From Prostheceraeus crozeri (lineage: Eukaryota > Platyhelminthes > Polycladida > Euryleptidae), in assembly GCA_907163375.1 (NCBI GenBank), contig CAJQUW010010488.1, forward strand, positions 17,740 to 81,739: DNA of 64,000 bases, in the 5' to 3' direction. The translations under genes and the position numbers were made by a program. A model generated the notes under the pieces. It searched no databases, had not been told where the DNA came from, and was given only the letters and a program-made list of their open reading frames with translations. The first letter of the stretch is position 1. Each line of letters opens with the position of its first letter. This document shows, one piece after another, positions 5,581 through 29,778 of this stretch.

Positions 5581-5586
5581 AAGAGG
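5581..5586. repeat. 6-bp Polinton target-site duplication, left copy
   Basis: AAGAGG directly precedes the Polinton. The same six bases follow it at 29773-29778. A 6-bp duplication is characteristic of Polinton/Maverick integration. Confidence 0.92.
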
Positions 5587-5941
5587 AGTAGTTAATAATG
5601 TGAACGCAAAAAGTGAGGATTAAAACGAGGATGCAAACATGGCGTTCCAAACATGTAAATATGAACATTTGAATTCGAACCGCGTTCCAATCATGTGAAT
5701 AGGAACCGCGTTCCGATTGGGATTTGAATTTGAGTTCATGTTTCGAGGTTCGGTACAATCAATTGTGTACTGGGGTTGTAACAGCCTGTTCCGATTTTGA
5801 ATTAAAGTGAGTGAATTAGAACAGGGATGCGAACATTTATTTCGGAACTTGAATAGATAGTTGTTTGTTTTGAGACTGCTTGCTCAAATGCGACAATTGT
5901 GGCCATTGTGACTATGATGACAATTTTATTTATTTTCATAA
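5587..5941 (+). repeat. Polinton terminal inverted repeat, left
   Basis: All 355 bases were compared by eye with the reverse complement of 29418-29772. Only one mismatch was seen, near the inner end (TTTATTT against TTTGTTT). Such similarity suggests recent insertion or repeat conversion. Confidence 0.93.
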
Positions 5942-5975
5942 CTAGGTTAAGTTATAAATACGTGGAAGTTGCTTC

Positions 5976-6479
5976 ATGGTTAGCTTCCCAATTTCATGGA
6001 TTGTTGCAAGAGACCTTGGTTATTCGCTAAAGGCCATAGAAACTGTTACAAATCTAAATGAAAATATCAAAGCTGGCGATTTAGTTGAACGACTAATGGA
6101 TCTGGATGAGCATACCATGAATGCTAATTTGGATCGTAGTTGGATAGAAGATTTCTCAATGCTACATCATAAAGACAGTGAAATTAGGAGGATGAAATTA
6201 GAACTTTCTGAAACGGAGATAAAAAAAGTGAAACCTTCAATTGATTTATCGAAATGTTCTATCGATGAAAGTGACTTCAGAAAGAAATTAGAAACAGAGA
6301 CGTTTAAACTATTATGTGAACGGAACTGCATTAGGTGTTTTGAACGGGAAAAATCCCTTCTCTTGTTACCATGTTCTCATTTTGTCATGTGTTCTACATG
6401 CTATATACCCTTGGAAACTACATTTTGTCCCCTTTGTGATGAAGAAATAATTTCAACAGTCACTGTATATCGTTCATAA
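5976..6479 (+). CDS. UBA-RING protein, IAP-like C-terminal half
   Basis: The 167-residue product ends in a C3HC4 RING finger of the inhibitor-of-apoptosis type: C118-x2-C121, C133-x-H135, C139-x2-C142, C151-x2-C154. This would make it a ubiquitin ligase that recruits an E2 enzyme. Residues about 7-45 (WIVARDLGYSLKAIETV onward) resemble the UBA domain that precedes the RING in cellular IAPs. No BIR domain is present, so caspase binding through a BIR is not expected. It is the first gene inside the left repeat, transcribed inwards. The ATG is the first in the open frame. IAP-like genes are known accessory genes of large DNA viruses; the role here is inferred. Confidence 0.75.
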   Translation: MVSFPISWIVARDLGYSLKAIETVTNLNENIKAGDLVERLMDLDEHTMNANLDRSWIEDFSMLHHKDSEIRRMKLELSETEIKKVKPSIDLSKCSIDESDFRKKLETETFKLLCERNCIRCFEREKSLLLLPCSHFVMCSTCYIPLETTFCPLCDEEIISTVTVYRS

Positions 6480-6526
6480 TGAGTCATCATGCGTGTCTGT
6501 AATTGGTTGCTATTGTGCAGCTTTTG

Positions 6527-6535
6527 TATATAAGG
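6527..6535 (+). promoter_or_regulatory. TATA box (TATATAAGG)
   Basis: TATATAAGG lies 55 bp before the ATG at 6590 and is near-identical to boxes before other genes of this element. Confidence 0.6.
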
Positions 6536-6589
6536 TTATGACACTTCTATTACAACCATATGTGTTGAGGATTGTAGACATTAATAAAC

Positions 6590-7201
6590 ATGCCATTTAC
6601 CACGATCATTCCTGTTTCAATTATTCACAAAGACAATCTGTTTACTAGCAAGATTTTCTACTCTGCAAATGATGTTATTGGTTACAAAGCTGATCTCATG
6701 GATCTGGTGGAGGATATTGTCACATTCTATCATTGTGAAGATGATATTGAACTTCAGAAACTCTTAATGAGGACATTGACCAATGCCCTTACGCGAGTAC
6801 TACGATTTTGGCTCGATGAAGTGTTCAAGCCTCTGAGTTTGACGGAAGCTATTCCACAGAGTTCTCGTTGCTATTGTGAAATGAGAACACGGAAATTGAA
6901 GACTTGTTTGCATGATATAATCGTATTTAGCCACTATGACGAAAATGGTGGTAAATTCAAGGTGGACATGTTTACCGGACCCCCGTCGATGAGCGTCAAT
7001 GTGGCAGTGCAAGATGACCGGGACATAATCAAGTTTAGAGCATACTATGCTAATCTTTTAAAAGTCTTCGCTTCAAAACCATGCTGTTCATGCTGTCCTC
7101 TATCAAAGGATTTAATGTGTAATATAGAACAGCTTATAACTGCAACGACTCAGACTTTGAGTGATGTTGATGACTACGACCTACCATCTGTTACCGTTTG
7201 A
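6590..7201 (+). CDS. Unknown Polinton protein, 203 aa
   Basis: Not recognised. The product is soluble-looking, mildly acidic at both ends and has a cysteine cluster near residues 164-169 (CCSCC), which may bind metal. A TATA box lies 55 bp upstream. The stop is 7 bp before the next ATG. It lies in the left, plus-strand block of virion-type genes, so a structural or regulatory role is possible but not shown. Confidence 0.7.
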   Translation: MPFTTIIPVSIIHKDNLFTSKIFYSANDVIGYKADLMDLVEDIVTFYHCEDDIELQKLLMRTLTNALTRVLRFWLDEVFKPLSLTEAIPQSSRCYCEMRTRKLKTCLHDIIVFSHYDENGGKFKVDMFTGPPSMSVNVAVQDDRDIIKFRAYYANLLKVFASKPCCSCCPLSKDLMCNIEQLITATTQTLSDVDDYDLPSVTV

Positions 7202-7210
7202 CTTTGTTGC

Positions 7211-7660
7211 ATGGAACTAGGCAAAAATGTATATTTTCATAAATGCTTTGCTTTTAACACAATAAAAATGACTGCACAACGAAAGGCATCTTTTTCTCGG
7301 AAGAATGGTTCTTTTAGACCTTCAAGTCAGTTTAAGAAGGCGTTGCGAAAGTTAAACAGCATGCGAAACAATAAAGTTAAGTGCAAATTAATTCAAAACT
7401 CAAGTGATGATTTCATCCGTGATTTGGCTTTTGCAATACACAAATGCCTCCCAATATACAAGCCTTTATTGAGTACTGATTCTCTAAACAGCATTAGAAA
7501 ATTTTCAAATACAAGAAGCAGTGATATGAAAAGGCGGAACTTAGTTCAGCGTGGAGGTGGTGGGTTTTTGAATATGTTGAATGATATTGGAAACAGCATT
7601 TACAATGTACTCAACAGTCCACTAGGGAAAGTTGTAGCAGGTGCCGCAGTGTTGCTATAG
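7211..7660 (+). CDS. Small basic protein with Gly-rich hydrophobic tail
   Basis: The product is 149 residues from the first ATG. A second ATG at 7268 (MTAQRKASF) follows AATAAAA and begins the strongly basic part, so it may be the true start. The body is rich in Lys/Arg (RKNGSFRPSSQFKKALRKLN). A short RRNLVQRGGGGFL stretch precedes a hydrophobic C-terminus ending KVVAGAAVLL. Small basic proteins with a GG-F motif and a hydrophobic end are common in Polintons and have been compared with adenovirus core or minor proteins; that assignment is tentative. It sits 9 bp after the preceding stop. Confidence 0.65.
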   Translation: MELGKNVYFHKCFAFNTIKMTAQRKASFSRKNGSFRPSSQFKKALRKLNSMRNNKVKCKLIQNSSDDFIRDLAFAIHKCLPIYKPLLSTDSLNSIRKFSNTRSSDMKRRNLVQRGGGGFLNMLNDIGNSIYNVLNSPLGKVVAGAAVLL

Positions 7661-7714
7661 ACGACGAATCATGGATTGACACGTCATCATTGATTGATGA
7701 CTCATGTGAATATG

Positions 7715-7722
7715 TATATAAG
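7715..7722 (+). promoter_or_regulatory. TATA box (TATATAAG)
   Basis: TATATAAG lies 87 bp before the ATG at 7810 and starts a new transcription unit after the basic-protein gene. Confidence 0.6.
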
Positions 7723-7809
7723 AGAGACGCGCTTGTACTCTTTAATCACTTTCAAGCTATCATTCATCGCTGACGGTTGAAAAGCTCCGAATAAGTACAA
7801 CATTGAATT

Positions 7810-8556
7810 ATGTCTCAAAAAATGTTTATAGTTAGAGAGGAGAGCGACTCATTTGAACGTGATCTCTTTAAATTCCGACCGACAAGGAAGGTTCAAGGGA
7901 TTGGAAATACCTTTTACTTCCAAACGTTGAGCTATGGTGACGATGGTTTCTACCTTCAAGTTCCATTTTTCCACAGTAATGGTATGTCTTCATCTGGATA
8001 TAGCAACATGAGACAAATGCGAGTGACCTTTCCGAAATGGCAGCAGATGATACTCAAAACCATCGACTCTTTGGCGAAGGAATGCGTTGTGTTGCCCGAA
8101 AGTGCTCCTACACATTGGAGGAAGGCGTTAGAGGAAGGAAGTGGCTATAAGGATTTACCCGAGTTCGATACGCTATTCTTGAAATTGTCCGATCACTTTC
8201 AAGCATTCGATCTACTTGTTAATACAATGGAGTGTGATGATCTTAAGCGCGGACGATACATGGGTTTAATACACGTCAACGGACTATACATTGGTGCTCA
8301 CGGCTCAACCGGAAAAGTGGCATCGTTACAAATGAAAGTTCTACAGTTGGTTTATGAGCCAATGCCGATTGATAAGTGTCTAATCACCATCGATAAACCT
8401 ACTTCAAAAGATGGGAAGGATGTTGAAGAAAGAAAAAAGCGGGGACGGAAATCCAAGGAAGGGAGTGTTAAGTTGAAATTGAAACGCCAAGATGCTCAAA
8501 TTGACGCGAGAAGTTATTTTAATGCTGACATTGATGAGGAAACACAAATGCTGTGA
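7810..8556 (+). CDS. Unknown Polinton protein, 248 aa
   Basis: Not recognised with certainty. The first 200 residues look like a mixed alpha/beta globular domain. The last 45 are highly charged (KDGKDVEERKKRGRKSKEGS), resembling a nuclear-localisation or nucleic-acid-binding tail. It has its own TATA box upstream (7715) and AATAAA about 25 bp after the stop. Its place directly before the packaging ATPase suggests a virion-related role. Confidence 0.7.
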   Translation: MSQKMFIVREESDSFERDLFKFRPTRKVQGIGNTFYFQTLSYGDDGFYLQVPFFHSNGMSSSGYSNMRQMRVTFPKWQQMILKTIDSLAKECVVLPESAPTHWRKALEEGSGYKDLPEFDTLFLKLSDHFQAFDLLVNTMECDDLKRGRYMGLIHVNGLYIGAHGSTGKVASLQMKVLQLVYEPMPIDKCLITIDKPTSKDGKDVEERKKRGRKSKEGSVKLKLKRQDAQIDARSYFNADIDEETQML

Positions 8557-8664
8557 ATGTGAAATGAAAGTTTCTAAATGTAAATAAAGTTGTTATGGAA
8601 CATGACTTGTTTTATTCTAAGCAAACTGGTGGGTGTTGGTCTTTAAAGCTTTTGAAATTTCAGG

Positions 8665-9300
8665 ATGACAGATTTTCGCCTATTCACTGATCGCACAATG
8701 TGTGTGGCCGGACCAAGTCAGTCCGGTAAAACTACATTTGTAACTCAATTACTACAATTTAGAAATGAGATATTTAATAAAGAAATTAAAAGAGTTAAAT
8801 GGTGTTATGGCATATTTCAACCACAACTACATTCTGCACTTCGCCAGAAAGGTTATGATGTGAAGCAAGGGTTACCGACAACTGAAGACATCAAAGCAGG
8901 TGACTTAATTGTGCTAGATGATCTATTGCGTGAAAGCAAATCATCGAAAGATGTAACTGAAATGTTTATTCAGACAGCACATCATAGGGAAGCCTTCATA
9001 ATCTATATCACCCAAAAAATTTTTGATGGAGGGAAAGAGCAAAGAACTAGGAGTTTGAATACACATTATTTGGCAATATTTAAAAATCCAAGAGACAGCA
9101 GTCAGATACATCATCTCAGTAGACAGATATTACCTCAACAACCTAAAGTTCTTTCAAAAATATATGAAGATGTAACTAAGAAACCACATGGCTATCTATT
9201 TATTGATCTAACCCAGGAATGTCCGGAACGACTTCGATTTCGAACTAATATCATACCTAATTCCGTTGAAACAATGACAGTTTTCTCGGTTCACAGCTAG
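8665..9300 (+). CDS. Genome-packaging ATPase (A32/FtsK-HerA type)
   Basis: This is predicted to hydrolyse ATP to pump the DNA genome into a preformed capsid. The 211-residue product has a Walker A motif, GPSQSGKT (16-23), a Walker B motif, LIVLDD (81-86), and a polar strand, YITQK (114-118), that fits the sensor position of the family. The length matches the short Polinton ATPases. The frame is intact, and this is one of the best preserved genes of the element. The ATG chosen is the first in frame and comes 20 codons before the P-loop, as is usual. Confidence 0.9.
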   Translation: MTDFRLFTDRTMCVAGPSQSGKTTFVTQLLQFRNEIFNKEIKRVKWCYGIFQPQLHSALRQKGYDVKQGLPTTEDIKAGDLIVLDDLLRESKSSKDVTEMFIQTAHHREAFIIYITQKIFDGGKEQRTRSLNTHYLAIFKNPRDSSQIHHLSRQILPQQPKVLSKIYEDVTKKPHGYLFIDLTQECPERLRFRTNIIPNSVETMTVFSVHS

Positions 9301-9341
9301 TTTTAAGCAATGTACTTTGTTGCCTTATTATTATTACAAAC

Positions 9342-9992
9342 ATGTCGTATTCAAAGATGGTAGTCATTCCTCAAGAGGAGTATATACAATTGACTACATT
9401 ACAAAGTGCACAAGAAGTCAAAAATATAGATCCACCTATTACGAATCAACTTAAGGAACTAACACAAAAGGATATGGAAATTCAGAAGATTAAGGATCCC
9501 TATCGACGAATGCAGTTAGCAGCTGAAAACATTGATGAGAGGCGACAGATTCGTGATAAGTTGCGACGATTTATAACCTTGTCAACACCTCGACCATATC
9601 GTGTGCGCGCTGAGCGATTATTTGACTTCATTGATCCACATGTGAAGTTCAATGAGAGAGGGGAAATAATAGATGAAACAACTGGTGATGTTATTAGAAA
9701 TAGTCACATAGATGACCTTCTGCAATATGCTGTCAGAGATGTAAGGCGAAAACTAGGTGCACCACAAGGGTGGTCATATTTTCAGAAAATTTTATCTGAT
9801 CAAAATGTACCACATAATATTATTGGAGGACCGACTGTGAATGAGTTGGACAAGGGTCACTTACAAGATGAAACAAAAAGTAAAACACCCACGATGGCGG
9901 TCAAGCGAGAGCTTCATGATCCCGATGATCTTCAACCAAAAAGAGCTACTAGGCGCTCAATGCGTGTTGGAAAGGATTATAGTAAATATTAA
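9342..9992 (+). CDS. Unknown Polinton protein, 216 aa
   Basis: The product begins MSYSKMVVIPQEEYIQL. This is followed by a charged, probably coiled-coil stretch (residues about 30-75, many K/E/Q), a more globular middle (80-150) and a disordered basic C-terminus (KRATRRSMRVGKDYSKY). A protein of this layout commonly lies between ATPase and integrase in Polintons, but its role is not known to me. It starts 42 bp after the ATPase stop and ends 35 bp before the next ATG. Confidence 0.7.
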   Translation: MSYSKMVVIPQEEYIQLTTLQSAQEVKNIDPPITNQLKELTQKDMEIQKIKDPYRRMQLAAENIDERRQIRDKLRRFITLSTPRPYRVRAERLFDFIDPHVKFNERGEIIDETTGDVIRNSHIDDLLQYAVRDVRRKLGAPQGWSYFQKILSDQNVPHNIIGGPTVNELDKGHLQDETKSKTPTMAVKRELHDPDDLQPKRATRRSMRVGKDYSKY

Positions 9993-10026
9993 GCAAATAT
10001 AAATTAAGCTTTGCTTCTCTCATATC

Positions 10027-10353
10027 ATGTCGCTACAAAAGTTTTGCTGCTGTTTGAAATCTGCGCTCGAAGGTAAAGGAGAAGAGGGCATAGAGGTTGA
10101 TATCAATTGTGTTAGCAGTTGCTGTGGGAGTAATACGCGTGCAAATCAGAACAAAGACGATGAGTACAGCAGTGAAACTCAGAAAGATTTATTACGACTT
10201 AAATCACCCCGCAAGTTTCAGTCGTCCGGAGGTTCTAGCTCGTGCAGCAGGTGTGGGAATAGAGAAAGTCAAGAAGTGGTTAAGGAGTCAACCAACTTAC
10301 ACTCTTCACAAAAATGCGAGAAAGCGGTTTCCAACGAGAAAATATGTTGTTAA
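10027..10353 (+). CDS. Possible short Cys-rich protein overlapping integrase
   Basis: The frame opens with cysteine clusters (FCCCL at 6-10, SCC at 31-33). Its first 45 codons lie before the likely integrase start at 10160; the remaining 60 overlap integrase in another frame and are of low complexity. Only the upstream part would be free to evolve as a protein. It may be a small membrane-anchored or palmitoylated product or a chance frame. Comparison with related elements would decide. Confidence 0.35.
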   Translation: MSLQKFCCCLKSALEGKGEEGIEVDINCVSSCCGSNTRANQNKDDEYSSETQKDLLRLKSPRKFQSSGGSSSCSRCGNRESQEVVKESTNLHSSQKCEKAVSNEKICC

Positions 10354-11248
10354 CAATATAGATAGTCAATGGCAAGCGGACTTGGCTGACATGCAACAGA
10401 TATCACAGTACAATGATGGCTATAAATACATCTTAACCGTAATAGATATTTTATCTCGCTATGCTTGGGCACGTGCGCTGAAATCTAAACGAGGACCAGA
10501 AGTTGAAGCGGCTTTTCAGAGCATTTTCGATGAGGGGCGTGTTCCACAAAGAATACAGACCGATCAAGGGAAGGAATTCGAAAACTCTCATGTTCGAAGT
10601 CTCCTTAAAAGTCATAATGTGGAATTGTTTAGTGTCAAAAGTGCTTATAAGGCTGCCATGGTTGAGAGGTTCAATCGCACACTGAAGACAAAAATATGGC
10701 GCTATTTCACTGCAAAAAATACACATGTTTGGATAGGTGAGCTGCAGAAATTTGTTAAGAATTACAATGAAAGCTACCATCGAATCATTAAGATGAAACC
10801 TGTTGATGTCACCCCAGATAATGCGATGGATGTATGGCTTCGATTGTATGATAAGAAAGCGAAAAACATTTCCAATGAAAAGAAAATTAATGTTGGTGAT
10901 AGAGTTCGGATTTCAAAGGTTAAGTCTACATTTGAGAAGGGGTATCTACCTAATTGGACTGAAGAAGAGTTTTTTGTAGATGAAGTAAATACAAAATTTA
11001 GACCCACCATGTATAAATTAATAGATTACCATGGCAATCCAATTGAAGGAAAATTTTACTCTTATGAATTGCAAGTAGTAGACAGAAGTGAAGAGGTGTA
11101 TATGATTGACAAAATAATTAGGAGGAAAGGTCATGGCAATCAAAGGAAATATCTAGTTAAATGGAAAGGATATCCTGATTCATTCAATAGCTGGATAACG
11201 CACCAGGATCTACAAAATGTGGAGGTGGGAGACACTCGTAACTTTTAA
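10160..11248 (+). CDS. Retroviral-type (DDE) integrase with C-terminal chromodomain
   Basis: This protein inserts the element's ends into host DNA, giving the 6-bp duplication. Counting from the alternative upstream ATG at 10097 (383 residues), the catalytic triad is D95 (QADLADM), D156 (TDQGKEF) and E190 (VERFNRTLK). A chromodomain occupies about 333-378 (YLVKWKGYPDSFNSW) and may steer insertion to methylated histones. The ATG at 10160 (MSTAVKLRKIYYDL) is preferred because the extra 21 upstream residues look hydrophobic and unlike the family start. The N-terminal HHCC zinc site is absent, as is usual for Polinton integrases. The frame is intact. Confidence 0.9.
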   Translation: MSTAVKLRKIYYDLNHPASFSRPEVLARAAGVGIEKVKKWLRSQPTYTLHKNARKRFPTRKYVVNNIDSQWQADLADMQQISQYNDGYKYILTVIDILSRYAWARALKSKRGPEVEAAFQSIFDEGRVPQRIQTDQGKEFENSHVRSLLKSHNVELFSVKSAYKAAMVERFNRTLKTKIWRYFTAKNTHVWIGELQKFVKNYNESYHRIIKMKPVDVTPDNAMDVWLRLYDKKAKNISNEKKINVGDRVRISKVKSTFEKGYLPNWTEEEFFVDEVNTKFRPTMYKLIDYHGNPIEGKFYSYELQVVDRSEEVYMIDKIIRRKGHGNQRKYLVKWKGYPDSFNSWITHQDLQNVEVGDTRNF

Positions 11249-11261
11249 GCTAATATAGCAT

Positions 11262-12866
11262 GTGACTTCTTCCATGTATGAGTTTAACAGGTCTACTAAC
11301 TTCAACATCATTCTTCCAAGCAATAGCAACCCCAAGATATTCCCAAGTAACAAACCATCTCTATACTCTGTTGAATTCGCTAATCCAATTACTCTGCATG
11401 GACCCCATGAAGTTGCTCTAACTGAAATTACTTATTACAACGATATCAGTTTGCTAAAAAACAATTATTTTGAATTACATAAAGAAGTACGAGAGAAGGA
11501 TGATTGTTTTCGCATATTTCACAATAGTCTACATGGTACATGGGCTTTTCATCATCTAACTTTACATCCTTTTTCAACATCTTTACCATCTGTCCAAAAC
11601 ATGATTAAAATTCAAAAGGCATTTGCAACGTCAACTTTTGATTCTACGGTTCCCACAATGAGCTTGCAATATACAGAAAAGGAAATCGGTAGAATGTTTG
11701 AACGAATAAATGGTCTCTTCAAGCTGACTTTGAATAAATTCTACAAACCAGTCATAAAGGGGTCAACAAAATTGATGAAGGAAGGGAAGCATGTTCTTCT
11801 TGTATTAGGTAAAGATTTGAGTCATACTTTTGGATATTCCAGAACAACTTTCTCATCAAGGTATTGGTACAATGGACGTGGGTGGAATTCAGAGAGGAAA
11901 ATCACTGATTTTAAATGTAGAATTGTGCCATTGTATACATTACAAAAAAGGAGCATCCGAGTAAAAAATAAATTTGAGGTCATTAGAAGTGTTGAAGACT
12001 TTGCAAGAAAGTTTCAAGGATCAGTGCCAGAAACGTTAATGACTTGTGAATATAAGAAAGAGAAAGTAACTTTATTTACTGTTGAAACGGAGGCAGAATT
12101 TATTGTTTTTACTAAAAAGACACCATTGGAAAAGTCTGAGTCCGCTGTTATTGAATTCGGATCTGAAATGATTGGGATGTTTAAGGGCCTTGAAAGCGCA
12201 CCTTGGTTGACAGAGTTAAATGATACATTCAAGGTTCAATTGTCCTCTTCTAAACTCAAAGCATCAACAAATGCTTCATGGGATATCCACGTATACAGCG
12301 AAGACATATTGGGTGATGAATTATCTACTTCCAGTGAACTTGTAAAAAGAGTTAATTTGAACATCGAAAGCTTGAAAACGCCATCTGAATTGTGTACAAA
12401 GTTAAATGAGTTTGGTGTAGATTACCTTGATGCAGATGAATATCACTTTTCTTATGATCCACATAAGAAACGCATGATTCTAAAGGTAGGGAAGAACTCT
12501 CTTATCAAGCTGGATAGCGTGTTAACGTCCACATTGGGATTCTCAAAATCAACTATTTATGAAGGCACATCAATAGGCGATACAGCCCCATCACTAGAGC
12601 GTGATATAAGTAACTTATACGTCTATTGTAACATTATTGAATATACAAGGGTTGGCGACATTGAGGCCCCACTTCTGCGCACATTTCCTCTCTCATCCGT
12701 AAGGAAGCAACTAATCAATCGAGAATTTATTAACACGATGTATGTACCAATGAGCAGAAATGTCATCAATAGAATTGACATATCAATTCATGATGACACA
12801 GGTGAAGTAGTACCATTCTGTGGTGGTGTTACTGTTTTAACACTACACATCAGGACACGAGATTAA
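11262..12866 (+). CDS. Probable minor capsid/penton-type protein, 534 aa
   Basis: The N-terminus has the pattern FNIILPSNSNPKIFPSN followed by PITLHGPHEVALTEITYYND, a conserved start of a 500-600-residue Polinton virion protein. It is thought to be a jelly-roll minor capsid or penton-like component; which of the two is not settled here. The rest is beta-rich without membrane segments. It begins 13 bp after the integrase stop and is fully open, although the next two capsid-block genes are damaged. Confidence 0.7.
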   Translation: MTSSMYEFNRSTNFNIILPSNSNPKIFPSNKPSLYSVEFANPITLHGPHEVALTEITYYNDISLLKNNYFELHKEVREKDDCFRIFHNSLHGTWAFHHLTLHPFSTSLPSVQNMIKIQKAFATSTFDSTVPTMSLQYTEKEIGRMFERINGLFKLTLNKFYKPVIKGSTKLMKEGKHVLLVLGKDLSHTFGYSRTTFSSRYWYNGRGWNSERKITDFKCRIVPLYTLQKRSIRVKNKFEVIRSVEDFARKFQGSVPETLMTCEYKKEKVTLFTVETEAEFIVFTKKTPLEKSESAVIEFGSEMIGMFKGLESAPWLTELNDTFKVQLSSSKLKASTNASWDIHVYSEDILGDELSTSSELVKRVNLNIESLKTPSELCTKLNEFGVDYLDADEYHFSYDPHKKRMILKVGKNSLIKLDSVLTSTLGFSKSTIYEGTSIGDTAPSLERDISNLYVYCNIIEYTRVGDIEAPLLRTFPLSSVRKQLINREFINTMYVPMSRNVINRIDISIHDDTGEVVPFCGGVTVLTLHIRTRD

Positions 12867-12906
12867 GGCTTTACGCTATTGTGGGATCTATAATTATCTA
12901 CAGGAC

Positions 12907-13229
12907 ATGATGTCAGGCATTTACAGTGGTCCATCCTATCAGAGCGGCTATCCCGTGTTGCTGGAGGTAGACGACAAGTTGGAGGAGGCATATTCGGTGC
13001 ACTAAGACGTATGGTTCTCCCAACACTCAAAAAGTATGGCGTACCATTCATGAAGCGGGTTGGAAACAGAGCTTTAGACTTTGGTGCAAATGTTGCAGCT
13101 GATGCACTTCAAGGGGAGAATATCGGTGAATCCATGAAATAATCTGCTATAGACGCATTAGATGATTTAACAAAGACGAGGCGTACAGTTCGGAAGAAAC
13201 GTAGGAAGTCAAGACAAGTTGGATCAGGT
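12907..13229 (+). pseudogene. Small basic Polinton protein, frameshifted and stopped
   Basis: The open start at 12907 (MMSGIYSGPSYQSGY) belongs to one frame. The family-like continuation (VGGGIFGALRRMVLPTLKK, from about 12978) lies in another, so a 1- or 2-base indel lies between about 12945 and 12970. An in-frame TAA follows at 13140-13142. The tail is basic (KTRRTVRKKRRKSRQ). Proteins of this kind, glycine then an amphipathic helix then a basic tail, lie just before the capsid gene in Polintons and resemble adenovirus minor core proteins. Its end now runs in frame into capsid sequence. Confidence 0.65.
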
Positions 13230-14180
13230 CGAGTTACTACATACATAAATACAATGACGCAATTTCAGAAGCAAGCTAAACAGTCACACTTGCAAGTTGC
13301 CGGCTGGTATGATGATCAGCAAGGGAAATTTGATGAGGTTTCAAATGGAGGTTTAAAAAAACGAATTGAATTGACAGCAGATTCAAAGGAATTATATTTG
13401 AAAGGACCTGTCTATCTTGATTTCCTTCGTCAATCTAGATATCTACTATCACAGGTTAAAATGCAAATAAAATTTATTCGTGCAAATCCTGAGTTCGCGT
13501 TAATGGCTTTTGGAGCTACAAACTATCAAATCAACATAAGTAGTGCCATACTCAATGTAAGGAGAGTAACAATGAACCCGTCAGTCATCAACGAGCATGC
13601 GACAGGATTGAGGAAAAGCAATGCAATATATCCAGTTAATCACAGTGTGTTAACAAACTCCACAATTGGTGCGGGATCATCCTCTCATGCCTACCCAAAT
13701 CTTTTTCCCACTGCGATGCCGAAGGCGGTGTATATCACATTTGTGGAAAATGAGTCATTTATTGGTGCTTTTGAAAAGAATCCATTTAATTTCCAACACT
13801 TTAACGTTAGTAAACTAGCACTCTATCAGGATGGAAAATTTGTTGCTTGCAAAGCTTATCAGCCTAATTTTAAAGAGGGTAAATTTGCACGTGAATATGG
13901 TTCTACTTTCTTTGCACTGAGCATGTTTAACACAGATGATTCAAATGGAATTACAATGGATATGTATAAAAATGGTTACTTCTTCATTATATACAATCTC
14001 ACAGCAGATGTAGATCTAGGCGGTGAAAGCGTAGGAGTTACAAAGCCTGGTAATCTACGACTAGAGGTGTCATTTGAGTCACCTTTGAAGAAAACAATTA
14101 CTTGCCTCATTTATGCTATCTATGATAGCAAAGTTGAAATAACGAGAATGCGAGACGTAACTGTCAGCTATCAGAGATGA
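13230..14180 (+). pseudogene. Major capsid protein, N-terminal third missing
   Basis: This matches the second half of the Polinton double-jelly-roll capsid protein. Diagnostic stretches are LQVAGWYDDQ, ALMAFGATNYQI and NPFNFQHFNVSKLALYQDGK. Homology starts around 13230 (YINTM), and the first ATG in frame is 13254. About 100-150 residues of the first jelly roll, plus the true start, are absent. There is no gap for them: the basic-protein reading frame joins directly in frame at about 13200-13230. A deletion therefore removed the end of one gene and the start of the next. The stop overlaps the protease start (ATGA). This copy cannot make a normal capsid by itself. Confidence 0.8.
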
Positions 14181-14638
14181 GTAACCTAAGCAACACTGAA
14201 ATCTTGAGGAAAATGGGAAATGCTCATCCCTACTCCAAGTCAACATTTCTTGATGTCTTTTCTAGAGATAATTTACCTAATTCAATTCCTTTCTATCCTT
14301 GTTCGCTTATCATCAATACGGACAGCAACAATCTTCCTGGTAAACATTGGATTGCAGTGTACATCAATCGCTATAAAGTGGCTGAATATTTTGACTCTCT
14401 TAATCTACCTCGCTTACATGACATTGCACTATGGATGAATAGGTTCTCCTGGACGATTAAGAAAGTTACATCGTTTCCACTCCAAAGCAATGTATCTCTC
14501 ATGTGCGGCGGTTATGTGCTATATTTCATCAACGAGAGACCATTGAAAAATAACTGTAAAAGTGTTTTACAACTTTTTTCGAAAGACTGCTATAAAAATG
14601 ATGTAATTCTTACAAAGTATATTGAAACTGTTTTGTAA
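14177..14638 (+). CDS. Adenain-like cysteine protease (capsid maturation)
   Basis: The 153-residue product belongs to the Ulp1/adenovirus-protease clan and is expected to cut capsid precursors. Visible catalytic elements in order are the His of KHWIAVYI, the Asp of EYFDSL, a Gln before the active site (LQSNVSL) and the Cys of MCGGYVLYF. The length is short but covers the core. It overlaps the capsid stop by 4 bp, and its own stop overlaps a polyadenylation signal. Confidence 0.85.
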   Translation: MSNLSNTEILRKMGNAHPYSKSTFLDVFSRDNLPNSIPFYPCSLIINTDSNNLPGKHWIAVYINRYKVAEYFDSLNLPRLHDIALWMNRFSWTIKKVTSFPLQSNVSLMCGGYVLYFINERPLKNNCKSVLQLFSKDCYKNDVILTKYIETVL

Positions 14639-14650
14639 TAAAGTTTTATT
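14637..14650. terminator. Bidirectional polyadenylation signals
   Basis: AATAAA on the plus strand (14637-14642) overlaps the protease stop. Its reverse complement TTTATT (14645-14650) gives AATAAA on the minus strand. This is where the plus-strand late block meets the minus-strand TBP-like gene. Confidence 0.55.
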
Positions 14651-14769
14651 TTATATGTAAATATCCTTGTTTTATGTTCCAAATCGTTGGGTTTAGAGGG
14701 AAAGCAAAACATGTTTACATTTCAATATGTATTTACAAATATACAGTTCTTTTCTAAATATTTACATAG

Positions 14770-15339
14770 CTACAATGCAGACTTCACAAATATTTTTCTC
14801 AAATCACATAGGATGGGAGGAACATCATTTATGTCTTTAATGCCGGTTATCACAATCTTTCCATTATGGAATACATGAACATGATATGGGTGCCAGTTAG
14901 TCTTCTGTGCTGCTGGAAATAGTTCCACTTCATAAGTGAGATTGATTGATGATGTGACTTTACGAAAGTCATAATGATACTTCAATTCACATAACACAGT
15001 CATTGTCTTCACTTCCCATTCAGATAATGAGTCACTAAGTAAATTTTCCAACGTAGAATGTAGATATGGTAGATCACCATCAGTGAAGCCACCAACACAC
15101 TGGATTGTTCCATTTGGAAAGAATAGGATAGTCACATATTTATCCTTCCTCTGTATCCTCCATGTTAACATTGAGGGTCTTCCCAGATGTAGATTCGTTG
15201 TCGGCTTCATCTTGTGTTTTATTAATAACCATTGCTTTCGATTGGGAATGTTCCGCTCGATTTCTTGAAGATTGAGTTTTGAGTTTACTTTTGTAGTTAA
15301 CATGCGATTCACGACTTCCATCCGCTTGATGTCCTCCAT
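14770..15339 (-). CDS. TATA-binding-protein-like protein, 189 aa
   Basis: The product has the two-repeat plan of the TBP core, with about the same length (about 180 residues). Repeat 1 spans about residues 11-105: LTTKVNSKLNLQEIE, then TWRIQRKDKYVTILFFPNGTIQ, then CVGG. Repeat 2 spans about 112-187 and includes the family signature YE-x-ELFP (136-142) and VFHNGKIVITGIKD (156-169). The aromatic residues that intercalate into TATA DNA in cellular TBP have counterparts in ILFF and VF. It is expected to bind TATA boxes and recruit polymerase II or a related polymerase. Several genes of this element have strong TATATAAG boxes. The first 200 nt overlap the end of the PC4-like gene in a different frame. 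Confidence 0.8.
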   Translation of the reverse strand: MEDIKRMEVVNRMLTTKVNSKLNLQEIERNIPNRKQWLLIKHKMKPTTNLHLGRPSMLTWRIQRKDKYVTILFFPNGTIQCVGGFTDGDLPYLHSTLENLLSDSLSEWEVKTMTVLCELKYHYDFRKVTSSINLTYEVELFPAAQKTNWHPYHVHVFHNGKIVITGIKDINDVPPILCDLRKIFVKSAL

Positions 15340-15700
15340 CCTTAATAAATGAAATCATATGTGGTAGTATCTCTTTTGTAAAGTTTCTCCATATGACGTC
15401 ACTGAAACGGAAAAATCGATAGTCAATATCTTCTCTCTTTGGTGAACAGACGTACAGCTTGACGGTAGAGTCACACTTTATCCATACCTTTTGATCGAGG
15501 GGAATCTTCATCCGTGTCTTATGGTTGTCAATCAGATCAGCGAAGTCTTTCAGTGAAGATAATGCGTCAAGGCTAATGCAAACGCCACGATGTCTTCCAC
15601 CACTATTTGCTATTGAGTGACGAAAGACTACTTTCTTAGAATTTGTTATGTGAACGCTTTGTAAGTCGTTTAGTTTCCATGTTCTAGTGTAACGAGGCAT
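15140..15700 (-). CDS. Protein with PC4-like DNA-binding segment, 186 aa
   Basis: Residues about 21-59 (KVVFRHSIA, then RGVCISLDALSSLKDFADLID) have the strand-strand-helix order and spacing of the PC4/p15 transcription-coactivator fold, where G-x-SL is followed by an LK-containing helix. The match is weaker than that of its TBP-like neighbour. Residues 72-100 (VWIKCDSTVKLYVCSPKRED) add two possible strands. The C-terminal 65 residues are low-complexity and charged, and these are the part encoded by DNA shared with the TBP-like start. If correct, it may bind single-stranded DNA at promoters or replication forks. Confidence 0.55.
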   Translation of the reverse strand: MPRYTRTWKLNDLQSVHITNSKKVVFRHSIANSGGRHRGVCISLDALSSLKDFADLIDNHKTRMKIPLDQKVWIKCDSTVKLYVCSPKREDIDYRFFRFSDVIWRNFTKEILPHMISFIKDGGHQADGSRESHVNYKSKLKTQSSRNRAEHSQSKAMVINKTQDEADNESTSGKTLNVNMEDTEEG

Positions 15701-15802
15701 GTTTTCAAATATAAACCTAATTTATCTGTTTGCATAAAGTTTGCTATTTCACATCTCAACATATCGGAATGATTTTGAGTGCTATGTCTTAAATTCATAA
15801 CA

Positions 15803-15889
15803 AGACTACCTATATTTTAGTAATAATTTCTACACATCGGAAAAATGTAGAAATTTCATTTTGTGTTTAGACTACCTATATATTAGTAA
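15803..15889. repeat. Direct repeats enclosing an 8-bp hairpin
   Basis: AGACTACCTATAT-x-TTAGTAA occurs at 15803-15823 and 15869-15889. Between them TTTCTACA (15827-15834) and TGTAGAAA (15846-15853) form an inverted repeat. This lies between the 3' end of the polymerase gene and the 5' end of the PC4-like gene, so it may be a terminator, promoter element or protein-binding site. Confidence 0.45.
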
Positions 15890-15960
15890 GCATAACTAAG
15901 CAGGAAGATGTGACGATTGGTTAGTTTACTTGTAAATTACCTTGTTGAATCTATTTAGAC

Positions 15961-18900
15961 TTATTCTACATCACCTATAGCAGGAAGGATTCTCCTTCTT
16001 TTTGAAGGTGGGGGAAGTCCCAAGCTATAGTGTCCATATGGTAGTGACAAATTTTTATTTAACCAACAGCGCTTATCCTCCCAGAGTGAAAGTCCTCGCT
16101 TCCTGAATGATTTTGTAGTAACTAAGTGGTTTTTCGAGTTAATTACTGTCATTTCTTCACTTGTATCCATTTCACGGTACTACACGGTCCTATAATCATT
16201 ATGTTGTAGTTTTTTAACTGCAGCTCTCTGCACTCCTTTTGCACGTTTGATGCTGTGACAAGATGAATCTAGATATTTCATTGAATACATTTTCGGTTTT
16301 AATAAGATCATTTCCTCAAGCAACTTTCCCGCACACTCATCCTTAAAACAGCCCAACCTAGCTCTGTTTGCAGTTGAATACAGTCGGTGATGTACATCAT
16401 AGTTTGAAGAGTCAAATTTTTCACCAAAGTATAGAAGTATGTCCTCCAGACGGACAGAAGGTGAGGTGTATAGACATAGGAAAAAACTGTCAGTGTCACC
16501 GCCACAAAGTCGCGTTCTATTTATCAGTGGACATCTTTTTAAATCATTGTAAAATAGTTGATACATTTCCAACTTGCTATAATCAAGAACTGCTTGACCA
16601 ACATAAATTTATTTATTCAACATTATTGAAGGCTTGTACATTTCCATGCCAACTAGATCTTCATCGAAGATCTTATGCTGAACATAGAGTGGATGATTTG
16701 ATAATTTTTGACATTGCTCAACACTATTAACTAATTTGAATTGTCTCCTTCGTCTTACATTTTCCATTGTCTTGCCATATAAAGAGTTATTCTTCAACTT
16801 GTAAAACGACTTTTCAAAATCAGTTCTTGACTGAGCTCTCTTTTGGGAATTCATGTCGATGAACGTTCTTAACCAGGGCTTTTGAGTGAACTTTACATCG
16901 CTATGAACTTTTTTAACTTTCATACCCATAGATAAATAAAATTTTAATATTGAATAGTGTACAACATAATTTTCCCTATCAAATTGGTGTAGCAATAGTT
17001 TCTTAGTTGAAGAAAAGTTAGTATTTGGTCTTACTTTCATATAACTTGAAAACATTTTTTGTTCTATCATCTGCATTTCTGGTGCCAATGGAAAATCGGC
17101 AGTGTCATCATGTATGCTTGCAGGATATTCCAAATCTAAATCAAAAATATATCCGATTTCACTATCATCATCTATGGCTTGAATATTAACTTCGTTTGAA
17201 AAGTAGCCTATTTCATGTTCATTCAACCATTTGAAATTTGAATGTGGTAGACTCTTGCTGAGTGACGAGCCGTAAAGGTTGTTGACATCTATCTAGGATA
17301 AGTGACGGCTTTCATTTGTATTATTTTGTAATTCCGTAATTCGTGCACGCGCTCGGTGAATATTTGTAAATGTCATACCTCCCCTTATTCCCCTTTCAAA
17401 TAGATTGTACATGTTTTCATCTTGTATGTAGTGTGGAGGATCAGATGAAGCAAAACTCAAAGCTGAAGTAAAACTAAGGTGTGGAAGGCTGACAAAATGC
17501 ACAGGATCCACCTCATCTTCATTTTGACTCAATGATCTAAAGACTTCAAAAATATCTGCCAGCAATAACACATCTAATTTGAGATATGCAAGCATGTAAT
17601 CACCAAAATTGGAGCAACTGAAAGCGATCCACGTATTACAAGCGTGTTCATATTCTTTGTCTGAGCAATGCTCTCGTGTGAGATCATTATAGAATTCACA
17701 TTGTGGTGGTAGACTATTTTCCAACAATGTATTTAGACTTTTGAAATAAGAGTAGGGAAACACTCCCTTTTGATATAGGATGTCATCATTAATCAGTGGA
17801 AATTCGTTTCTTAATTTTTCTACATGCTTATACACTTGTAATCCTTTTGCTAATTCACTTAGTGATGCACTTTAAAATTGAAAAGAATCCAAGAACTTTA
17901 ATTTAAAATATATTGTTTTTCCGTTGTACTCGTTCACAGGTACACTAGCGGATAAAGTTATGTATTTTTCAGCTGTGGCTGCTACCACTTCTAATTTCCA
18001 TGGTTTCTTCTTTCCAATTGCTTTGTAGCAAACGATGTGACTGTCATAATTCTTGAAGTTGTGGAAAAATATGGGCAGTTCCCGCCTATTCAGTTTCAAT
18101 CGAAGGTTGCATTTGCTACATAATGTTTGTCTATATTTTCCTGTTATATGATCATGATCTCTCACTTTGATACAATCATCACTGAACTTAGATTTACATT
18201 TACTGCAACTCTGTGCGCTTTTGTGTTTTCTTCTTCATCATGGGATAGAGACATCGGTTGTCTACTTATTGCACGCTGATTGTCATACAAATTTTGTGCT
18301 ACATTTTCTAGGTGATTTAAGAAGTTCATAATACAATTTTCTCCTTTAAAGACATAATATTCGTTATCAAATTTTGATTGGAGAGCGTTGTGCCATACAT
18401 GATAAACTCCAACTGCTGCAGGTTTATGCACTTCATTATCGATGTAGCACTCTATATCTGCATAAATTACTAAAGGTGGACTTAGATGATATTCCATGCT
18501 ACTTGTACTTACCTCTAGTTGTTTAGGCATTTTTTCTATTTGCGCTTTCCTCGAACACAAAATTGATAATGTCGGTCTAGAGTTGTCTTATATGTAAACG
18601 ATTGGGTGCATCGATCACAGTAATGTTTAAATCTTTTATTAATTTTCCTATATAGTCTCGATATCTTTCTGATTCCACAATAATGTGCGCGTTCATTGTT
18701 AACAATTAACAGTATATTGACAGTTCGTTTACCAATAAAGTTGCTACTATAACGAACACCTTTGAGTCCTTTTTCATAAAAGTGAATGTTAATTTTGATG
18801 TCATTATTTTTCTCAAACCTAGAAATATCTTTTATTGATACTGGTGTGACAATGCCATCCATATTCAGATCAGATGTCCACTTGCTATATGATTTCATCT

Positions 18901-19831
18901 CATTTCTCGAGTGAAGTACTTCATCATAATGTAGTATTGATAAAACCGAATACTTGAAGCAGTCATTTGCATTTGAGTGTACATTGATTACAGCCTTAGA
19001 ATCTTTCAAGCTCTTTGGTAGAGTAAATGTTCGTCCACCAGATAGTAGTGGACTGGTAATAACATTGAATTCAATATTAAGTATTTCATCTATAACCCAG
19101 TTGCTACCCTTATTTGCAAATGCTTCAATATGGCTTGAAAGACTATTCAAATTATCTTGGAACCAGGTATCATAGTCATAAATATAGTTTGTAGATGATG
19201 ATGTAAAGTGTGCGAGAAACGTTTCATCTTCTTGAGGATTTGATCGCACATAACGAATTTGTGCAATTAGACGGCCACGTAGTTGAAATTGTTCTAGAAG
19301 GTTTGACACTAAGTCCCCTAATATAGGTCGCATACTCAATAAAAAAGAATTATTGTCGATTGTATGTGTTGATGGTGTGATGTCATATACACGAGCGTGA
19401 CCATTAAGTGCGCTTTCACTGAGATTTAGAGTTCCATGATTATTATGAATATTCATCTCACTTTTTGTATTATGTACATTCATATGCTGACGAAATTTGC
19501 TAACAGAATTATAATTTTTGCCACAATGGGAGCAACATTGCATAAAGGTATTATTTGAAGCGCTGGTTGACGTATGTCTAGACGTTGGTTCAACAATACT
19601 AGATCTGGATATGTGATTATTTTGTGATTCTACTTGATTAACAACTGACATATTTTGAGAATTTGAACTTAAATTGCAAACTAGATTGTGTCGCTTTAGA
19701 TTATCCTTCCTATTCGTTTGATATGGACACTTGCTACACTTATATGTTATCCCCAACTTACAAAATTTTTCATGACGTTGGAAATTGCAATAAAGAGTAA
19801 AAGATTTTCCACACTTGGAACAGACAACCAT
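15961..19831 (-). pseudogene. Protein-primed-type DNA polymerase B, broken
   Basis: About 1290 codons. The N-terminal 431 codons are open (19831-18536), with C2H2 zinc fingers (CSKCGKSFTLYCNFQRHEKFC) and the conserved C..H region typical of Maverick polymerases. Exonuclease motifs: Exo I, YADIECYID (about 18440); Exo II, HNFKNYDSHI (about 18050); Exo III, YLKLDVLLLAD (about 17565). Polymerase motifs: A, DVNNLYG (about 17280); B, KNNSLYGK (about 16775); C, GDTDSF (about 16490). The damage consists of frame changes near 18545 and 18165-18230, plus in-frame stops at 17872, 17293, 16609 and 16180. Each stop is one base change from a plausible sense codon, so this is decay and not introns. Confidence 0.9.
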
Positions 19832-19870
19832 TCTTAATAGTAAATGATAAGGATTATAATTTTTGATAGT

Positions 19871-19879
19871 CCTTATATA
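19871..19879 (-). promoter_or_regulatory. TATA box of the polymerase gene
   Basis: TATATAAGG on the minus strand lies 40 bp before the polymerase ATG at 19831. Confidence 0.6.
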
Positions 19880-20039
19880 TTTTCATCATTCTATGACGTC
19901 AGAGCTATTACCACCCAATAGAATTTGTTCCGATCTCTTCACTTTTGAGATACATGTAGTATTACCGATCGATGATATAAAGGAAAAAATTCAGGATTTA
20001 CAATAATTTTCATTTTCCAAAAGAAAAAAGTAAAGTACA

Positions 20040-22129
20040 TTACATTTTTATGCATTTTACAATGCCACTGTGGCACATCTTGATGTGCTGACACTGTGCA
20101 GAGCAAGCACCCCTGTCTTCCATGTGAGTCAGCCTCACCTTTTCAATGTTTGAATTTGCATACTCAATATGCATTAAAGTCTCTTTTTCAAAAGGCTTGT
20201 TGCCTCTTGAAAGGAGTGATGCCATATGCAAGTTTGACTGTGTTAGATTTCGCACAGATTGAATTAGATCACGATTTTCAGTCCTTAACTTCGCTTCCCT
20301 TTCCTCAGCGACTCGCAGTCGCTCCTCACAGCGCCTCAACTCACTATTGTCATTGGATTCATCTAGATCAACATTGTACTCCTTGGTTCGCAGCATGATG
20401 GAAGCAGGAGCGTGGATAGTAGTGTTGGAGATCGTAGGGGGAGCAGGATCATGGGAAGTCGTAGGTGATGGTGTAGTAGGAGGAGTAGGATTGTGGGAAG
20501 TCGTAGGAGCAGTCCCCGGGGTAGGTGGTTGTGTTGTGGGCGGTGGTGATGCACCCCTATACTCCAGTATAGGAGTGAAGGGGAAGCGGACGCTGCAGGT
20601 TGGAGACGATCGAATGTTGGAGAAGGATTCTTCCTCCTGTGATGCGTAGACCGCTGCATCCTGTAATGAGAATAGAAAATATTTGTATTATCCATGCATC
20701 ATTATATGGGAAAGAAGTTAATAATGTTTGTAGAATTAACAATATAATAATATTTAAATAATGTAAACATGTTTTCTAGTGTTTGAAAGCTATCTTACCT
20801 TAGGAGTCATGACGATCTCATGATCAGATCCATCTTCCACCGCAATGCTGTATGAACTATTCTAAAATCAAAATTTAACTGTTACAATCTTTTACATTTC
20901 AATTATCTGCTTTCATATTCATTCCTTATATTGTACTTACCTTAGCAATTCTACCATCATCACTGTCATCATCAGAAGAAGTTGGCGATGATGTCGCTGA
21001 CGAAGAGGACTCATCCGAAGAGGACTCATCTGATGAGGACTCGCGGATGGTGTAGGGTTTTTTCTCATTGTCCTCCATAGACGTTGAGGTAGGTGGCGTT
21101 GAGAGGACACTGCGATCTCGAGTCTTTTTCAGTGATAAAGATCGAATTGCCTGCAATAGGAATAAAGACAAAATGATTAGAGAGTGATTATTAAAAAAAT
21201 GATAGATTTCTGATTTCTGATGATAGACTGCAACAATCATACTTACAGGTCTCTGACATCCATTATTTTCCACCGTTCTCAACTTGGGAATAGGGGGCAG
21301 ACTTTGGAACAGCTGAAAAGTTAACAATGTTTTAAAATTTCTAGTTATATACGTATACACCTTGTAAATAATACTTACGGGATGTGGATTTACTTTTTTC
21401 TCCACCATAGTCAATTTCGGAACAGGTGGCAGACTGTTGAAATGCTGAAAGAAAGAGTTTGGTAGTAAAACATATTTAAAATCATAAACATTTTGACTGT
21501 AAAATACTTACATCTCTTGCTGTAGGCAATTTCTTTAAAAGTACCTTGGCACTCTTCGTTGGAAGTTCTGAACTCTGAAATGTTAAAAAATATGTTTACT
21601 ACATGCATACTTGCACTAGAATCGTAAGTGACATTCATCATTGTTTCATTTAAAAACCTAATTTAAAATAAGCATTTAACAGTACTCACTTCATAATCAG
21701 ATAGTGACGTGTCACTATCAATGAATTTTCTCGACTTTACTCTGATGGATCGCGTCTTTTTTGGAGGTTTAGAAGTCTTCGCGACCTCATCACATTGGCT
21801 CAAAACCCCTGTCGCCGGCCTGTCCTCCTTGGCAAACAATCTTTCCAATTTCCGCTTCTCTGCGGTCGAGGTCAAATTGATGCCTTTGCGTCCATTACCA
21901 AGTGCACAGGCAGTATGGGCTTGAATAAAAGCCTTATCTTCCTCACTGTTCGCCTTCTCAGTGCTCTTCAGATATGCCTTACATGTAAGGCAATACAGAT
22001 ATGTACCATCCTCCTTAAAAGAGCAACCCTTATGACTGCTTTTGCTAGCGTGGCGAACCAGCAAATTGCAAGTACTGCAATAATGAAAAATAAGTCTCTG
22101 TCGGGAAGTGCTTGACGTTCGAACCATTT
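20040..22129 (-). CDS. Spliced gene inside the Polinton, about 508 aa, unknown function
   Basis: Seven coding exons, all joined by phase-0 introns with GT..AG borders: 22127-21690, 21574-21512, 21444-21379, 21312-21247, 21150-20941, 20861-20799 and 20660-20040. Exon 1 (acceptor TTCCTTTGTAG just before the ATG) encodes a cysteine-rich zinc-binding-like region (CSTC, then YCLTC with later H and C) and a basic tail. Two 22-codon exons are near-copies (HFNSLPPVPKLTMVE and LFQSLPPIPKLRTVE), and a 21-codon exon before them is similar in length. Then come an acidic Ser/Asp block, a Pro/Thr-rich linker and a C-terminal coiled coil (LRRCEERLRVAEEREAKLRTE). Not recognised; it could be a host gene captured by the element. 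Confidence 0.75.
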
Positions 22130-22738
22130 CTACAAAGGAAATAATCGTTTGTTATATTCTTATCTCTCTGTAGATTAGAACTCATTTATGAATCTATTTT
22201 CCAAACTTAAAGAAGTAATATTAAAAAGTTTAATAATCTCAATTAGAAAAATATTAAGATGAAACAGAAACCGAGATTCGAACTCTTAAATCAATTTTTA
22301 AGAGGTGTTTTTGATATAGAAACATCAAGTTTGGAATCAGCTGAGTAAATGTTATTTAATTTCGAAAAAAAACATTGAAACGAAACTGACTTTTCGAAAA
22401 AACGAAAGTGTAGAGATTGATTAAAAGTATTTTAATTAGAAGAACAGCTGATTGAAAATGAAATTAATGTGTTAGTGTTTTATTATTTAGAAACGAAATC
22501 TTGTGATGTTTATTTAAATTCAAACACTACATCAATCAAGATCGCTTGATTCATGTGTATTTCATATGCTATAATAAAAAAAACGAAGTAAAGATTTGTG
22601 ATTAATAATATAACATTGTGTTGTTTCCTATCCTAAAAGCCAACCATATATTTTAAACTATTTGGTTATAAGAAGTTAGTAATGTACCTATTTCCCAAAC
22701 TTAGAAAGTAGTAAATACTAAATGATGAAACTCACTTC

Positions 22739-22851
22739 AGAAATATAATTGTAAATCGACGAAACGGAGAAGCGGAGAACGAGGTCTTGTATGCACACCA
22801 AATAATTCAAAACTGAGTGAAGAACGGAGCTCTACAAGTTCTTTATATATA
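22739..22851 (-). promoter_or_regulatory. TATA box, initiator and non-coding first exon of the spliced gene
   Basis: On the minus strand TATATATAAAG (22851-22841) is followed about 30 bp later by a TCAGTT initiator-like site (22816-22811). A donor, GAA|GTGAGT, lies at about 22738. The predicted leader exon (about 22814-22739) would splice to the acceptor at 22130, giving an intron of about 600 bp (22130-22738) in which no coding sequence is seen. Confidence 0.55.
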
Positions 22852-23024
22852 GATTCAACAAAGGAACCATGAACAAAGACTTGATGACATAATAATAATA
22901 ATAATAATAATAATTTGTATTTGGCAAATTTACATAAGATACACAACATTCTTTTTTGATCTGTTTATGGGTGACAAATACAATGAATGGCCCTTTAAGG
23001 GCAGGCATGGATGGAACGAAAAAG

Positions 23025-26012: not shown

Positions 26013-26033
26013 TGTGTCATCAAAACCAATTTG

Positions 26034-26789: not shown

Positions 26790-27456
26790 GATTATCAAAC
26801 AAGAGGTAAATTAATTGATGGATTTACGGCCAGCACAGTGTGCGTCAAACAGGCGATGACGCGGTAGTTAGTCAACGGAAGCAAGGGAAACGTGAATACC
26901 TTACACTGTTAGCACGACATCATGTCATCAATTTGGTACAGCAAAACAAACTTGACAATTTTAAACAAAATAATAATCAGCTGGCTCATTTTATCCATTA
27001 GAATGGAATGGCATATCAAATGCTATGAATATGACTCTTGTAAATAGTATAAAATCTACTATATGTATCTATTATAAACACAAGCAAGTTAATTCAAATG
27101 AATTCAGAGAGTTTGAACATTATTACATACAAATCAATTATTCAATTCGTAAATATATATATATATATATATATATGGTAACATGTTTGAAGTCAATCTT
27201 TTAAGATATTTGAATTGCATGTCAATTTCTAAAGTTTAATTTTCGCGCCAAAATATTGGCTTAAAACTCTTGGAGATAATATCAAAATCTGGAATATCTA
27301 AATTTCAAATTTCGCGCCAAATTTCAAAATTTTAAATTTCGCGCCAAATTTCGAAATTTTAAATTCGCGCCAAAATTCAAATAATAGGTTAGGGTTAGGA
27401 TTAGGGTAAGGTTTTAGTTATGCAAAAAAAGAATTGCTATGGCACCCGGAGCCCAT

Positions 27457-29772: not shown

Positions 29773-29778
29773 AAGAGG
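29773..29778. repeat. 6-bp Polinton target-site duplication, right copy
   Basis: AAGAGG, identical to 5581-5586. Confidence 0.92.

Follow-up and report, generated by a model that had tools for sequence, protein, structure and literature searches.

The open reading frame (ORF) of 189 codons described here almost certainly encodes a homologue of the TATA-binding protein (TBP) carried by a Polinton, and comparison with its relatives shows that the gene is old and has been conserved in several of this animal's Polinton families. It lies in a window of 64,000 nucleotides, by which we mean the whole stretch of DNA that was analysed.

The TBP homologue and the element that carries it

An earlier note on this DNA had described an open frame of 189 residues with two TBP repeats over the core length, located in a Polinton. 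The 189 codons are indeed open, on the minus strand, and profile searches bear out both repeats. The Pfam model PF00352 matches the ORF in two stretches (E=1.1e-12, 48 bits against a curated cut-off of 22.9), and hhalign aligns a profile of 59 relatives with human TBP (1nvp) at 99.3% and E=3e-20, over 163 columns spanning the two repeats. The NCBIfam archaeal TBP model NF001593 covers residues 5-177 of the 189 with 34.5 of 181 bits, far under its curated cut-off. PF00352 is matched by all members (17/17) of the first homologue set. A PDB search with the profile of 17 relatives gave 35 distinct sequences at E<=1: 34 are named as TBP or as fusions holding TBP, and the remaining one, the ECU04_1440 protein, is by its sequence a TBP too. 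The motifs YE-x-ELFP and F-x-NGKIVITG quoted in the note are present as YEVELFP at residues 136-142 and FHNGKIVITG at residues 157-166. Overall identity with human TBP is about 20%.

The location in a Polinton is confirmed by terminal inverted repeats (TIR), a 6-bp target-site duplication, a presumably protein-primed PolB and an rve integrase, all features of Polinton/Maverick elements, and a P-loop ATPase and a weak protease match accompany them (Table 1); in contrast to other Polintons, the element in the window adds the TBP and a conserved upstream ORF overlapping it. The termini are AG...CT. The name of major capsid gene is presumptive, the ORF being a candidate for the double jelly-roll capsid protein of Polintons by position and size only; the ORF of the window copy is without about 120 N-terminal residues found in its relatives, and a PDB search with the relative from locus L031 gave no match. 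The PolB piece of the window copy matches DNA_pol_B_2 with E=8e-5, slightly under the cut-off. Four stretches of C2H2 zinc fingers open the PolB frame (18536-19831); two further copies were read across PolB, of which L009 has this C2H2-PolB fusion in a single open frame of 1318 codons and L010 has PolB in two frames. The window copy is worn, since its PolB is spread over several frames and its capsid ORF is short at the N-terminus. The first ORF past the left TIR (5976-6479) encodes a RING-finger protein (zf-C3HC4_3, E=3e-10), a candidate ubiquitin ligase. The Polinton is interrupted at 23025-26789 by a LINE whose ORFs encode reverse transcriptase and endonuclease.

Table 1. Coordinates of the Polinton, its genes and its candidate promoter signals in the window
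Feature	Position	Strand	Evidence or remark
Polinton, family A, 24.2 kb including LINE insertion	5587..29772	.	inverted repeats, 6-bp target duplication
Target-site duplication AAGAGG, left	5581..5586	+	
Left TIR, 355 bp	5587..5941	+	99.7% to right TIR
Right TIR, 355 bp	29418..29772	-	
Target-site duplication AAGAGG, right	29773..29778	+	
Packaging-type ATPase	8665..9300	+	P-loop clear; AAA_14 E=7e-5, Pox_A32 weak E=0.064
Integrase with chromodomain	10160..11248	+	rve PF00665 2e-13, PF00385 1e-9
u530, virion-region gene, no assigned fold	11274..12866	+	relatives in L031, L033, L034
Putative major capsid gene	13254..14180	+	blastp 41-43% to 371-432-aa ORFs in L031, L033, L034
Ulp1-type protease (PRO)	14177..14638	+	weak Pfam match E=0.06; relatives adjoin TBP in B, D, E
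TBP homologue, 189 aa	14770..15339	-	PF00352 E=1.1e-12; hhalign to human TBP 99.3%
Upstream ORF, 186 aa, conserved, overlaps TBP start in another frame	15140..15700	-	similar ORFs in B, C, E
PolB with N-terminal C2H2 fingers, split over several frames here	16180..19831	-	relatives in L009, L031-L034
TATATAAG before u203	6527..6534	+	
TATATAAG before u248	7715..7722	+	
TATATAAG before PolB	19872..19879	-	
TATATAAG before u133	28860..28867	-	
TATATAAG before u97	28929..28936	+	
TGACGTCA (CRE-like), upstream of TBP, within upstream ORF	15394..15401	-	
TGACGTCA (CRE-like), upstream of PolB	19894..19901	-	
CTAAGC, candidate late element of ATPase	8617..8622	+	
TTAAGC, candidate late element of u216	9303..9308	+	
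Two TTAAGC, candidate late elements before u108/integrase	9989..10009	+	
TTAAGC, candidate late element of u530	11245..11250	+	

Similar overlapping ORFs stand at the TBP start in families A, B, C and E (see below); none was seen at the family D locus. The upstream ORF has 12 database relatives, and searches with one, 4 or 13 sequences gave no significant Pfam or PDB match, the best PDB match (E=0.23) being to a nucleosome assembly protein, in the acidic tail. A reading by eye as a PC4-like coactivator was dropped for want of a significant match in either database.

Against copies L002, L005 and L007 the window copy diverges by about 1.1-1.5% over 13.3-15.6 kb and by about 12% in PolB beyond; against copy L004, divergence begins beyond about 15.4 kb. 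As divergence thus rises near 15.6 kb from roughly 1% to roughly 12%, the window copy looks mosaic, and the jump, within 13272-16840, is a sign of recombination between Polinton lineages. Outside the Polinton a second, larger inverted-repeat pair was observed (2724-4280 and 32049-32723; 675 nt, 97%); each of its arms has 175-bp tandem units, and the Polinton therefore seems nested in another repeat element. Minus-strand ORFs past the Polinton (38079-39112) gave no Pfam match at 0.01; the end of one of them looks, by eye, like the C-terminus of a hAT transposase. An exon of a host gene, a chloride channel of ClC-7 type, is located at 51886-52410.

Families, relatives and age of the gene

The distribution of the gene was analysed in the host genome (2.05 Gb, 14,165 contigs). 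The TBP of family A, to which the window copy belongs, is present in at least 150 genome copies at 97-100% identity, and 149 of the 150 matches listed are without internal stop, in a list whose ranking by score favours intact copies. A genome search with PF00352 returned at least 150 rows, distributed as follows among the matches listed: 2 correspond to exons of the host TBP, 2 to a second host TBP-like gene, which we take to be TBPL1, and 146 to other loci. Sixteen of these 146 were read, and comparison of their sequences shows that, besides A, the genome holds no fewer than four TBP families: B with 3 loci, C with 6, D with a single locus that has one internal stop, and E with 6. The earlier note had proposed to look for the gene in other Polintons, and it is found there: in the stretches of families B, D and E the TBP is surrounded by PolB, integrase and protease, together with relatives of u530 and of the putative capsid gene. 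In family C the TBP and the upstream ORF are multi-copy, and the only Polinton genes near them are PolB pieces at one copy (L032); at loci L037 and L041 no Polinton gene was recognised beyond the upstream ORF. The family C loci may represent a reduced form of the element that is no longer autonomous, or else the remains of a rearrangement.

Database searches identified 16 relatives of the TBP protein by sequence and 115 by profile; they are known here from their protein sequence alone, the Polinton location being seen only for families A, B, D and E of this genome. Scans of IMG/VR with the TBP gave no relative, by a method that reaches only close relatives of single proteins, so this result does not mean that the viruses there are without TBP. 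No match to the TBP was found in phage records or in PHROGs.

A tree of 51 rows was built from 59 aligned relatives, the families and cellular TBPs, rows shorter than 150 aa being dropped except for the families and cellular TBPs. A branch with support 99/97 separates 43 rows, namely the five families of this genome and 38 metagenomic relatives, from the human, host and M. jannaschii TBPs, the second host gene and four metagenomic sequences (P0105, P0107, P0108 and P0110). The tree with the host TBP, which had also been suggested, thus sets the element TBPs apart from cellular ones, the host TBP grouping with human TBP across the branch. Family A groups with P0003 and P0018-P0021, families B, C and D come together and family E branches apart; the places of the long branches (FamD, P0026, P0107, P0110, M. 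jannaschii and the second host gene) and of P0024 and its kin, which meet P0026, are unsure. With five families in one group apart from cellular TBPs, the gene seems older than these families. Recent capture of the host TBP gene by one Polinton can practically be discounted: a host TBP does exist in this genome and Mavericks are known to carry host genes, but the tree rejects this origin by the 99/97 branch between host and human TBP and the element TBPs, and five divergent families in one genome and database relatives at 49-97% identity also argue against it.

Summed pN/pS among copies is 0.13 for A (8 copies), 0.49 for B (3), 0.41 for C (6) and 0.40 for E (6); choosing copies by protein similarity lowers this ratio and the frame partly overlaps another ORF, so that the values lend weak support to selection.

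Conserved residues and promoter signals

Residues were counted in human numbering among 63 sequences, relatives and families taken together, a row being counted where it has a letter at that position. Three of four putative DNA-intercalating phenylalanines are kept in the family: F214 (62/63), F288 (62/63) and F305 (62/62); that the four form the intercalating set is our assumption. The fourth, F197, is replaced by Pro in 42 of the 46 rows and by Leu in 1 and remains Phe in 3, a pattern that suggests altered binding. Where human TBP has Lys at position 236, its relatives mostly have Glu (33) or Asp (7), and in family A about 10-15 residues are inserted ahead of the first stirrup. Like cellular TBP, the Polinton TBP has two repeats over the 163 columns, with Phe 214, 288 and 305 and the YExELFP loop kept; it differs by the Pro for F197, a changed N-terminal basic patch and a position outside the cellular clade.

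The YExELFP loop is conserved at E284 (62/63), E286 (57/63, plus 6 Asp), L287 (58/63) and P289 (61/63), and E284 and E286 are presumably the TFIIB-contact positions C.L3.2 and C.L3.4. The conserved glutamates C.L3.2 and C.L3.4 contact TFIIB; virus TBPs vary at them and are nearly always accompanied by a TFIIB of the virus (poxviruses excepted), and the N-terminal lobes of virus TBPs have lost the host-regulator signature (PMC7221094). No TFIIB was found among the element ORFs scanned with Pfam, so host TFIIB would be needed; with their TFIIB glutamates kept, the Polinton TBPs would be expected to use it.

Upstream regions of the element were examined for promoter signals. The five occurrences of TATATAAG in the window element all sit 48-95 nt upstream of same-strand ORFs that do not belong to the virion set. 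Among 2268 8-mers with 4-30 occurrences it has the best placement, and it is the sole one with at least 4 copies in such positions. The element has just two TGACGTCA sites, one upstream of PolB and one upstream of TBP, and copies L009 and L010 have them as well; the sequence was not found in the fetched stretches of families B, C, D and E. In families B, C and E the TBP is preceded by TATAAA, as is the RING gene of family A, and TATAAA also precedes two late-type genes (A u108/INT and B u137), TATATA preceding B PRO.

Of 15 packaging, virion (capsid-region) and integrase genes of families A, B and D, 10 carry a second kind of signal, YTAAGC, at 23-49 nt ahead of their start; "late" is assigned by gene type, not timing, and many of the tested genes are those on which the motif had first been spotted by eye. 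The count takes the start of D u130 at a non-ATG codon and leaves out the A and D capsid starts and the D integrase, because these have no clear start. The five late-type genes lacking the motif are PRO (A, B and D), B MCP and B INT. In dinucleotide shuffles YTAAGC reached a mean of 1.27 of 15 and never more than 6 in 2000, and in other upstream regions it is present once in 16 (u97 alone). When no motif was chosen beforehand, the best 6-mer was AAGCAA (9/15; shuffle maximum 7 in 500 sets) and the best 5-mer TAAGC (10/15, equalled as maximum in 7 of 500 shuffle sets). Across the whole window element YTAAGC has 10 occurrences, 6 of them 20-110 nt before a start. Family E, which has the TBP, shows it in 1 of 7 late-type genes, and no motif stands out in its late-type upstream regions. 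With no more than 23-49 nt between YTAAGC and the ATG, the motif might equally be an initiator or the site of another factor. The element TATTTAA, of KSHV type, is near no ORF start in the window element; TATTAAG precedes u108 by 40 nt and both PolB and TBP by 8 nt.

Possible roles of the Polinton TBP

An own TBP and two kinds of promoter signal suggest that part of the element's transcription is under its own control. The claim of the earlier note that the element controls promoter choice for its own genes stands in part: two promoter classes and the retention of presumed DNA- and TFIIB-contact residues speak for it indirectly, and the 1/7 of family E speaks against it. The Polinton TBP would act as a promoter-selectivity factor. 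Early genes (PolB and others) with the host-type signals TATATAAG and TGACGTCA would be started by host TBP, as would the TBP ORF itself behind TATAAA in B, C and E. The Polinton TBP, whose N-terminal repeat is altered (F197 to Pro) while its C-terminal repeat and TFIIB-contact loop are intact, would then bind a non-TATA element, (Y)TAAGC(A), before packaging, virion and integrase genes, favouring TTTTAAGCAA over TATATAAG. Once bound, it would bend the DNA and recruit host TFIIB and Pol II without TFIID, and this recruitment would switch on the late genes. We hold the whole mechanism, in which host TBP starts early genes and Polinton TBP directs late genes via host TFIIB/Pol II, tentatively, as slightly less likely than not. 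Its more specific form is possible but doubtful: a two-stage programme in which a minimal virus TBP re-aims host TFIIB/Pol II from TATA to a Polinton-specific, TTAAGCAA-like late element, its specificity changed via the N-terminal repeat (F197 to Pro), motif and TBP having co-diverged between families and E using another element.

Virus-encoded TBPs offer partial parallels. KSHV ORF24 is described as a TBP mimic acting at TATTWAA late promoters, early genes having TATA (PMC6541308). The herpesvirus vTBP (beta/gamma, KSHV ORF24) would resemble the Polinton TBP as a virus-encoded TBP function with a non-TATA late element, a functional parallel only; it differs in that the Polinton candidate element is YTAAGC, not TATTWAA, and in its five further vPIC partners, none of which was seen in the Polinton. 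The note mentioned that some giant viruses have a TBP, and two-lobe TBPs are indeed described in giant viruses, phycodnaviruses and mirusviruses, all dsDNA viruses (PMC7221094, PMC10132985, PMC12085832, PMC11464507); in this respect the Polinton resembles them. Large viruses often have their own TFIIB and many are without the TFIIB glutamates (PMC7221094), whereas in the Polinton no TFIIB was seen and the glutamates are kept. The note knew of no TBP homologue described in Polintons, and we likewise found none in the open-licence literature, judged by titles, the starts of abstracts and selected passages. Wherever a passage of the texts consulted (PMC11071296, PMC10675990, PMC10132985, PMC7221094, PMC6541308, PMC11071308, PMC11464507, PMC12085832, PMC7786948) names both TBP and Polinton, the TBP is that of a giant virus, of a mirusvirus-like element or of the host.

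Three other roles were considered. The protein could serve as an additional TBP at those genes of the element that have TATATAAG, such as PolB, and so make them independent of host TFIID and its regulators, with YTAAGC belonging to another factor. TATATAAG is a canonical TBP site placed 5/5 at element ORFs, three of the four Phe are kept and the N-terminal regulator patch is changed (236 mostly Glu/Asp), but Pro for F197 in 42/46 rows suggests altered binding, and host TBP is already able to use TATATAAG, so that a second TBP would bring small gain; we consider this role unlikely. It is improbable that the protein is a decoy or antagonist that reduces host transcription, or silencing of the element by the host, by taking up TFIIB or the TATA boxes of the host: kept TFIIB-contact residues and differing N-terminal contacts would suit it, while the conservation of the DNA-contact Phe in nearly all rows and the linked two-class promoters of the element count against it. 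A DNA-bending protein for replication or packaging, not transcription, would agree with the position of the TBP next to PolB, protease and virion genes in four families, but is also improbable, as such a role does not need the conserved TFIIB-contact loop.

Polintons are widely placed near the root of many eukaryotic DNA viruses, and we know of no account of how they time their genes. A standing TBP gene of several Polinton families, together with two promoter classes, provides a concrete hypothesis on this timing. The gene also represents a divergent branch of TBP in which one putative DNA-intercalating residue is replaced and the predicted TFIIB contact residues are kept, which bears on the evolution of TBP promoter specificity.
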